Shown here piece after piece: positions 29,912 through 32,205 of a stretch of 64,000 nt of DNA. The number at the start of each line of letters is the position of its first letter. The stretch's first letter is position 1. The translations under genes were made by a program, and so were the position numbers. This stretch comes from Clostridia bacterium (GTDB taxonomy: Bacteria; Bacillota; Clostridia; TANB77; UBA1234), in the NCBI GenBank assembly GCA_017462965.1, contig JAFTQC010000022.1, forward strand, positions 1 to 64,000, written 5' to 3'. The notes below the pieces were generated by a model, which was not told where the DNA came from, searched no databases, and saw only the letters and a list, made by a program, of their open reading frames with translations.

Positions 29912-29968
29912 AACAGGGCAAAAGAGTCGTTGTTGTTATGAAAAATACTTTGGATAATTCTTTAGTGA

Positions 29969-30204
29969 GTGGGTATGGTCTAAGTAGACGTTGGAACTTT
30001 GAGCGGTGCTACCTCGAGGAGCATTGCTGAAAGGATCGGTGGACGCTCTGATTAATACACCTGTCGTAGGGGATAGTGCGGTTTATACCTTGCTATCTTG
30101 GGAGAGAACCTTACTACTTTGGTGTGTTTGAAAGCTAAGAGAGCGCCCTGCCTAGTATCCTCAAAGTTTCGAAGCTGTGGGTTCAAGTCCCACTACCCAC
30201 GCCA
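29969..30204 (+). ncRNA. Stable RNA with tRNA-like acceptor and T arm, tmRNA-like topology
   Basis: 236 nt. The 5' GTGGGTA pairs with TACCCAC at the 3' end, followed by G and encoded CCA. A T arm (GTGGG-TTCAAGT-CCCAC) adjoins. Instead of an anticodon arm, a helix of about 13 bp with wobbles (TTGGAACTTTGAG at 29991-30003 with CTCAAAGTTTCGAA at 30160-30173) opens into a structured domain. Inside are the hairpin AGCGGTGCT/AGCATTGCT and a long rod (AATACACC/GGTGTGTT, GATAG/CTATC). This order matches tmRNA, but I see no tag reading frame ending in Ala-Ala, no G-U pair at acceptor position 3-70, and discriminator G. A tRNA with an intron is less likely because the inserted ends pair with each other. 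Identity is unresolved. Confidence 0.65.
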
Positions 30205-30400
30205 TCGCGTATGCCGGTGTTATTTTAAACCCGTGTGCGGCTCCACCTCCTCGCAAAATGTGGCCATGCAAAAAAAGAGAGGCGCACTGTATTTTGCCGG
30301 CGTACGCTAAATATGAATTGAAATCTGCACGCCCTGCGGATTCGGCCGACTTCAAGTTGTCAACCCCGACTTGAGTTAGCTCTTGTAGAAGAGGAACGCT
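30205..30400 (+). other. GC-rich segment after the tRNA-like RNA
   Basis: About 170 bases directly after the CCA are much GC-richer than the surroundings. They contain an inverted repeat (GCGTATGCCGG at about 30207 and CCGGCGTACGC at about 30298). Open frames on both strands look spurious. This may be an element inserted at the 3' end of a tRNA-like gene, or a structured trailer. Confidence 0.35.
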
Positions 30401-30403
30401 TCT

Positions 30404-30440
30404 ACAAGCCCCATATTAATATATGGGGCTTTTGTTTTTT
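30404..30440 (+). terminator. Intrinsic terminator of the stable RNA transcript
   Basis: AAGCCCCATAT pairs with ATATGGGGCTT around TAAT, followed by TTGTTTTTTT. Confidence 0.85.
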
Positions 30441-30485: not shown

Positions 30486-30514
30486 TTGACATTTTGCCTA
30501 TTTTGGCATATAAT
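30486..30514 (+). promoter_or_regulatory. Consensus promoter of cysS leader transcript
   Basis: TTGACA (30486-30491) and TATAAT (30509-30514) with a 17-bp spacer, a perfect sigma-A-type promoter. Confidence 0.9.
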
Positions 30515-30545
30515 ACAGAAAGATTATGATGAGAGGAAGAGATAT

Positions 30546-30590
30546 ATGAAAAAATATATAATCACTAATTGTTGCTGTTGTACTTGCTAA
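30546..30590 (+). CDS. Cysteine-rich leader peptide of cysS
   Basis: A 14-residue reading frame, MKKYIITNCCCCTC, with five Cys codons (UGU UGC UGU UGU ACU UGC) directly before the stop. It begins about 30 bases after a consensus promoter and has AGAGGAAGAG as ribosome binding site. It is followed by alternative hairpins and a terminator, then cysS. The layout is that of a classical ribosome-mediated attenuator, in which ribosomes stalled at Cys codons, when Cys-tRNA is scarce, change the fold of the leader. It is below the length normally annotated. The evidence is position and composition; translation is not proven. Confidence 0.8.
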   Translation: MKKYIITNCCCCTC

Positions 30591-30599
30591 GTGCTCTGT

Positions 30600-30705
30600 C
30601 TATTGTAGATATGAGTACTATTTTGCATGCCTACAATAGTGATTATATTATTCTAATATCATTAGATAAAATAAAGCTATGTAGGTCTAAAACTACATAG
30701 CTTTT
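30600..30705 (+). promoter_or_regulatory. Attenuator of cysS: competing hairpins and terminator
   Basis: CTATTGTAG (30600-30608) pairs with CTACAATAG (30631-30639). The latter strand, extended as CAATAGTGATTAT (30634-30646), can instead pair with ATAATCACTAATTG inside the leader peptide codons (about 30558-30571). A final hairpin, AAGCTATGTAG/CTACATAGCTT (30674-30703), followed by TTG, is a modest terminator 40 bases before cysS. No T-box motif is present. Confidence 0.65.
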
Positions 30706-30744
30706 GTTATGTATATAGTAAAAATATGATTAGGAGGTTTTTTT

Positions 30745-32205
30745 ATGAAAATATATAATTCAATGACAGGAAAAAAAGAGGAGTTTAAGCCGATTAATGA
30801 AAATAAGGTAAACATGTATGCCTGCGGTATTACAGTTTATGATTTGAGCCACATTGGCCATGCTCGTCAGGCAATTGTATATGCAATGATAACAGATTAT
30901 TTTAGATACAGAGGATATGACGTTAAATATGTTCGTAATTATACTGATGTGGACGATAAGATAATTAATCGTGCAAATCAGCTTGGCAAGAATGCTATAG
31001 AGTTTTCAAGGGAACAAATTGAGGAAACTGAAAAGGATATGGCTGGACTACATATTACAGATGCTGATATTAAAACGAAAGCTTCTGAATATATCGATAA
31101 AATAATTGATTTTGTAGGTAATTTGGTTGAAAAAGGGTATGCATATCCAACTGAAAAGGGAGATGTATATTATAGAGTCAGAAACTTTAGGGAGTATGGC
31201 AAGCTTTCAAATAGAAATGTTGATGATATGTTGAATGGTGTTCGAGTTGAGCTTGAAGAGGGGAAAGAAGATCCTATTGATTTTGCTCTTTGGAAATCAG
31301 CTAAGGAAGGCGAGATTTCATGGGATTCACCTTGGGGCAAGGGTAGACCAGGATGGCATATTGAATGCTCTGTAATGGCGCTTTCAACACTTGGTGAAAC
31401 CATTGATATTCATGGTGGTGGAAGGGATTTGATGTTCCCTCATCATGAAAATGAAATTGCGCAATCTGAAGCTTTGACAGGCAAAACTTTTGCAAATTAT
31501 TGGTCACATTGCGGACTTATTAAAATAAATGGTGAGAAAATGAGTAAATCGTTAGGCAACTCATTAACAATTCGTGATGCGCTAAAAATGTACAATTACG
31601 AAGTGTTGAAATATGTTATGTTCTCAAAACATTATTCATCAGATATTGATATTTTGGATAGTGACTATGTTACAGCCGAAAGTCAAATGTATTATTTTTA
31701 TAATACGATAAAATCTATGGAAGCTTTTGTAAATCAATATGCGACAGAAAGTGCAGAAAGATTAGAGGATTCTATTGCTGGAACAATAACTGAAGAGTTT
31801 ATTGAAGCGATGGATGATGATTTTAACACTACAGCTGCGATAGCTAATCTTCATGGTATTTTTAAGTATAGTAATGGAGTAATAAAAGCCGCAAATAAAG
31901 GAAATAGAGAGAAAACAGCAAATACTTTGAAGGAAATTCTTGAAAAAGTTAAAGATGCATACAAGGTTTTAGGATTCTTTACACAAGATCCAGAAAAATT
32001 TATTTCAGAACTTAAGGTTAAATATTTAGGAAAATTAAATATGACAGAAGAGGAAATTACGAAAGAAATTGAAGCAAGAAAAGCTGCAAAAGCTGAGAAA
32101 AATTATGCTTTGGCGGATGAAATTAGAACAGGTTTAGATGAAAAAGGAATTATACTAAACGATACAGCTGCAGGAACAGTTTGGGATATAAAAGCACTTT
32201 ATTAA
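30745..32205 (+). CDS. cysS: Cysteinyl-tRNA synthetase
   Basis: A 486-residue class I synthetase that attaches Cys to tRNA-Cys. It shows the HIGH signature as SHIGHAR (about 35-41), the KMSKS loop EKMSKSLGNS near residue 265, and the zinc ligands Cys (YACGITV), Cys (WHIECSVM) and His/Glu (FPHHENEIAQSE). The C-terminal DALR-like and anticodon-binding region is complete. AGGAGG precedes ATG at 30745. It lies behind a Cys-codon leader peptide and terminator, suggesting control by Cys-tRNA charging without a T-box. The gene for tRNA-Cys is at 49375-49448. Confidence 0.96.
   Translation: MKIYNSMTGKKEEFKPINENKVNMYACGITVYDLSHIGHARQAIVYAMITDYFRYRGYDVKYVRNYTDVDDKIINRANQLGKNAIEFSREQIEETEKDMAGLHITDADIKTKASEYIDKIIDFVGNLVEKGYAYPTEKGDVYYRVRNFREYGKLSNRNVDDMLNGVRVELEEGKEDPIDFALWKSAKEGEISWDSPWGKGRPGWHIECSVMALSTLGETIDIHGGGRDLMFPHHENEIAQSEALTGKTFANYWSHCGLIKINGEKMSKSLGNSLTIRDALKMYNYEVLKYVMFSKHYSSDIDILDSDYVTAESQMYYFYNTIKSMEAFVNQYATESAERLEDSIAGTITEEFIEAMDDDFNTTAAIANLHGIFKYSNGVIKAANKGNREKTANTLKEILEKVKDAYKVLGFFTQDPEKFISELKVKYLGKLNMTEEEITKEIEARKAAKAEKNYALADEIRTGLDEKGIILNDTAAGTVWDIKALY

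Follow-up and report, generated by a model that had tools for sequence, protein, structure and literature searches.

The gene for cysteinyl-tRNA synthetase (cysS) in the analyzed window, a 64,000-nucleotide stretch of a Clostridia bacterium (contig JAFTQC010000022.1, assembly GCA_017462965.1), is preceded by a short reading frame rich in cysteine codons and by alternative RNA hairpins that probably form a ribosome-mediated transcription attenuator of the trp/his type (estimated probability about 0.9). Comparative evidence strongly supports this reading. Notably, related gut Clostridia carry the same RNA scaffold with histidine, leucine/valine, or arginine codons in place of the cysteine codons, in front of the matching amino-acid genes. 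The features of the locus are as follows.

30486..30514, plus strand: sigma-70 type promoter, TTGACA-17-TATAAT
30531..30539, plus strand: purine-rich ribosome-binding site of the leader peptide (GAGAGGAAG)
30546..30590, plus strand: 14-codon leader ORF encoding MKKYIITNCCCCTC, with four tandem Cys codons at 30570-30581, a fifth Cys codon at 30585-30587, and the stop codon TAA at 30588-30590
30556..30567, plus strand: strand L, formed by codons upstream of the Cys run, which pairs with strand E and would be blocked by a ribosome stalled at Cys
30590..30602, plus strand: strand 1, the 5' arm of hairpin 1:2, which begins at the leader stop codon and would be masked by a ribosome at the stop
30606..30619, plus strand: 3' arm of hairpin 1:2; strand 2 (30600-30608, CTATTGTAG) overlaps its start and alternatively pairs with strand 3
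30630..30639, plus strand: strand 3 (CCTACAATAG), which pairs with strand 2 (pro-terminator) or strand 4 (antiterminator)
30637..30648, plus strand: strand E, which pairs with L (default, terminating fold) or with the downstream A/T-rich strand inside the antiterminator
30673..30704, plus strand: intrinsic terminator 4:5; strand 4 (CTATGTAGG, 30677-30685) is shared with the antiterminator 3:4
30745..32205, plus strand: cysS, with its ribosome-binding site AGGAGG at 30732-30737

The original prediction of a promoter, a 14-codon frame with Cys codons, alternative hairpins, and a terminator upstream of cysS, with no T-box, is confirmed, although the ORF starts at 30546 and the element proper spans about 30522-30710. 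The promoter has 12 of 12 consensus matches and is also present in the sister genome G005. A search of the 2.07 Mb genome for ATG plus four tandem TGY codons gave eight matches, of which, by inspection of the sequence, only this one is in frame without an intervening stop. The RNA at 30521-30712 folds to -51.3 kcal/mol (z = -4.0; 1 of 200 shuffles as good). The predicted pairing between the first part of the peptide coding region and the strand that otherwise closes the middle hairpin is also real, as 30556-30567 pairs over 12 nt with 30637-30648, which overlaps that strand. The terminator-like hairpin has 12 pairs, but its U-tract is imperfect (TTTTGTTATG). The downstream gene matches TIGR00435 with 532 bits against a cut-off of 340, and no Rfam family matches the leader at its gathering score.

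The strands can pair in a chain of alternatives. Hairpin 1:2 has 13 pairs, helix 2:3 joins CTATTGTAG (30600-30608) with CTACAATAG (30631-30639), and the antiterminator 3:4 joins CCTACAATAG (30630-30639) with CTATGTAGG (30677-30685) with one bulge, whereas 4:5 is the terminator. In addition, the helix L:E encloses 1:2 and excludes 3:4, because strand 3 would lie inside and strand 4 outside. In the inferred mechanism, a ribosome waiting on the Cys run when Cys-tRNA is scarce covers strand L, such that L:E cannot form, and leaves strand 1 free, such that hairpin 1:2 forms; strand 3 is then free to pair with strand 4 as soon as it is made, with E folded inside, and the polymerase reads on into cysS. 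When Cys-tRNA is plentiful, the ribosome would run to the stop codon at the foot of strand 1 and break 1:2, strand 2 would capture strand 3, and strand 4 would be left to strand 5, forming the terminator; once the ribosome leaves, L:E would reinforce this state. Without translation, L:E would form by default and also favor the terminator. The stalling, the kinetic order of folding, and termination in vivo are inferred in the absence of expression data.

The Cys codons are conserved among relatives. The closest cysS orthologs carry the same leader, namely MKKYIITNCCCCTY in G005, MKQNNVVINCCCR in the named contig L016, and MRKMLFTNCCCNI in L018. Elements upstream of cysS in 16 genomes of the order, plus L016, have a leader with a Cys run, and the same scaffold with Cys runs precedes cysK (10) and cysE (5); 31 of 31 elements before cys genes have the run. 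However, several close relatives have no leader before cysS. In genome G002, where cysS is 44% identical, another short ORF with two Cys codons (MKKFEIKNTCWCS) is followed by hairpins and a terminator of unrelated sequence, and may be an independent Cys attenuator. A loose pattern search for short Cys-run ORFs was uninformative, with matches in every genome.

The helices also show covariation. In 29 Cys elements, L:E, 1:2, and 4:5 together have 91.8% of cells paired, with two-sided changes in 17 of 35 pairs and 90 cells; none of 500 shuffles reached this level, and slid controls had 24-53% paired. Individually, L:E (12 of 12 pairs in the window) has 86.9% of cells paired with 6 pairs showing two-sided changes, 1:2 has 94.5% paired with two-sided changes in 6 of 12 pairs, and 4:5 has 96.2% paired with 5 two-sided changes. 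Helices 1:2 and 3:4 together have 93.7% paired, and 3:4 alone has 95.0% paired but is mostly invariant, as expected for strands with two partners. Helix 2:3 by itself shows little covariation in the Cys class, but was recovered by RNAalifold over 50 members of all classes with two-sided changes.

A covariance model of the four closest Cys leaders (R1) hit 49 of 385 genomes of the order, including places not before cysS. A second model built from 46 members (R2) hit 96 of 385 genomes and 26 of 48 genera, with about 120 places and several per genome. Strong and chance hits are well separated: in a relaxed search of 36 genomes, nearly all hits at E below 3.1e-4 were leaders, and only two of the ten weaker candidates inspected (E 0.004-0.13) were real. 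This relaxed search added two divergent His members (L295 and L299) and no further amino acid. A class-wide search beyond the order gave mostly chance hits; only three weakly matching but convincing His-type members in one other family (before hisZ-like genes at L263 and L275 and an unidentified gene at L265) look real, plus one possible member (L272).

Leader peptides in these elements were chosen by start codon, ribosome-binding site, and stop position rather than by content, and the downstream genes were clustered and annotated. Cys runs precede cysS (16), cysK (10), and cysE (5). His runs precede hisS, hisZ, hisG, hisC, hisI, histidine-racemase-like proteins (CntK and Fusobacterium HisR families, below cut-off), amino-acid ABC binding proteins, and peptidase-like, GNAT, and phosphoribosyltransferase-like genes. 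VGLL(L) precedes ilvB (8), and RRRRH precedes argB (1). Among genes of assigned pathway, the codon class matches the gene in 92 of 94 cases, against a permutation mean of 40 and a maximum of 56 in 20,000 shuffles. Of the two mismatches, one (L141) has no recognizable leader and the other (L260) is a weak hit. The HHH leaders before GNAT (ten loci) and phosphoribosyltransferase-like (four loci) proteins of unassigned function suggest histidine-related roles for these proteins. Moreover, two His-leader attenuators lie in tandem upstream of hisG at L166 (genome G086) and L154 (genome G021), and the same scaffold with leaders MKNIFLNRWHRHLN and MNTIFLKKEHKHS precedes a radical SAM protein at L153 (genome G001) and L164 (genome G009), although the amino acid sensed there is unclear.

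These elements are not all independent, since relatives inherit them. Nevertheless, several classes in the same scaffold occur within single genomes (for example, cysS, cysE, and ilvB in G081; cysS, ilvB, and a histidine-racemase-like gene in G039), which argues for duplication and codon replacement. In addition, R1 was built from Cys leaders only, yet found His, Leu/Val, and Arg members at E about 1e-2 to 1e-12, which favors common descent over convergence, although convergence of mutually complementary strands is not fully excluded. It is likely, but not established, that one ancestral ribosome-read attenuator spread through this order of Clostridia by duplication and changed its amino-acid specificity by replacing the leader codons, giving a leader-peptide counterpart of the T-box family that controls synthetases, biosynthesis, and transport. 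Because the scaffold is shared and the codons differ, the evolution of specificity can be followed directly.

To examine the ribosome logic, transcripts ending before strand 5 were folded with an assumed ribosome footprint (14 nt upstream to 15 nt downstream of the P site) on the run or at the stop. The mean numbers of antiterminator pairs were 9.4 versus 1.5 for His elements (57 of 63 higher when stalled, 0 lower), 5.6 versus 2.2 for Cys elements (17 of 32 higher, 0 lower), 3.9 versus 0.4 for Leu/Val elements, and 10.8 versus 0.1 for Arg. The spacing is constrained, usually with 12-21 nt from the run to the stop and 15-25 nt from the stop to the 3' arm of 1:2. However, for the window's own sequence, equilibrium folding of this transcript gives the antiterminator whether the ribosome is on Cys1 or at the stop (10.7 versus 10.8 pairs), and the full-length fold always contains the terminator. 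In shorter intermediates (ends 30641-30672), folded with a footprint shifted by one base, a ribosome at Cys1 leaves strand 3 free with 1:2 formed, a ribosome at Cys4, Cys5, or the stop mostly gives 2:3, and no ribosome gives L:E or another terminating fold. The switch in the window must therefore be kinetic, which is normal for attenuators but unproven here.

Alternatively, the leader may act at the level of translation or mRNA stability, through coupling or reinitiation, rather than by termination. Leaders can act by reinitiation (PMC4833913), and the imperfect U-tract would be compatible with this possibility. However, the hairpin plus U-run is kept in nearly all members with two-sided changes, and the cysS ribosome-binding site lies outside the alternative helices, such that this explanation is possible but unlikely, being less economical given the conserved terminator.

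ALTERNATIVES. Control of cysS by a T-box or a cysteine-binding riboswitch, with the short ORF being incidental, is very unlikely. T-boxes control many synthetase genes in Firmicutes, and this genome has eight T-box matches, which lie before valS, aspS, serS, glyS (two near-identical loci), ileS, pheS, and thrS, but none is at cysS. In addition, the codon run changes with the downstream gene while the RNA scaffold stays, which a ligand pocket does not explain, and Rfam searches found nothing in 17 family members except a SAM riboswitch elsewhere in one locus. Membership in the Rfam trpB motif (RF04312), an orphan riboswitch candidate of Firmicutes, was suggested by a weak full-length match but can be dismissed as far as sequence models can show, given the score of 24.4 bits against a gathering score of 59, the different consensus (AcAGAuac...guaUCUgU), and the lack of matches in nine other family members even at E up to 10.

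Whereas the original prediction regarded a ribosome-sensed Cys attenuator for cysS as new or little described, the arrangement itself is not unprecedented. The uORFC-8-2 motif of Rhodobacterales cysS (PMC8632094) has a short ORF with tandem Cys codons and an intrinsic terminator and is also predicted to act by ribosome-mediated attenuation. That motif is alphaproteobacterial, is found exclusively upstream of cysS, and has two Cys codons at positions 14-15 inside the first stem, whereas here the run is 2-5 codons upstream of the first hairpin, inside the L:E loop, and the scaffold is shared with His, Leu/Val, and Arg versions. Enterobacterial trp/his/pheST attenuators follow the same logic of regulatory codons, 1:2 / 2:3 / 3:4 alternatives, a stop codon placed to mask a strand, and default termination without translation, with pheST showing the type for a synthetase gene; the element described here has an extra strand pair (L:E) and a chain of four consecutive alternatives, and one homologous scaffold serves several amino acids. 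The Cys leader peptides of actinobacterial cys operons (PMC1262725) also have runs of Cys codons near the leader stop, but lack a conserved terminator (Rho is suspected) and precede cys/cbs operons rather than cysS.

Among Firmicutes, His-leader attenuators with runs of 3-5 His codons, a terminator, and an antiterminator before his genes are known for hisS*/hisZ in bacilli (PMC2965389) and in the B. cereus group, Peptostreptococcaceae, and Erysipelotrichales (PMC9413887). These were described one amino acid and one lineage at a time, with no shared scaffold across amino acids described in the texts read. BCAA codons occur in single-specificity leaders upstream of ilv genes, namely the Leu-rich attenuator peptide of the S. 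aureus ilv operon (PMC5794164) and the ilvBNC uORF of Corynebacterium (PMC10272879). The T-box (RF00230) likewise combines one scaffold with exchangeable amino-acid specificity for synthetase and biosynthesis genes, but senses tRNA directly. A 2005 survey held that most synthetase genes in Firmicutes are under T-boxes and none under classical attenuation (PMC1262725), and His-leader exceptions have appeared since. Here, a whole family of leader-peptide attenuators sits beside T-boxes in the same genome, each serving different synthetase genes. A homologous attenuator family with exchangeable codon specificity appears to be new, as no description of one spanning several amino acids was found in the open-licence papers searched.

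Finally, a tRNA-like RNA lies upstream of this element at 29968-30203 of the window, with a tail to about 30440. Its acceptor stem and T arm (TGGGTA...GTGGGTTCAAGTCCCACTACCCACGCC) close a small D-like hairpin and a long branched insert, with promoter-like TTGACA/TATTAT sequences upstream and a terminator near 30406-30431. This RNA is not a tRNA or tmRNA by ARAGORN or Rfam, the tmRNA of the genome being located elsewhere, and it has no full-length relative in 189 other genomes. It is, however, well conserved in G005 (87% over 29960-30440, higher in the core).
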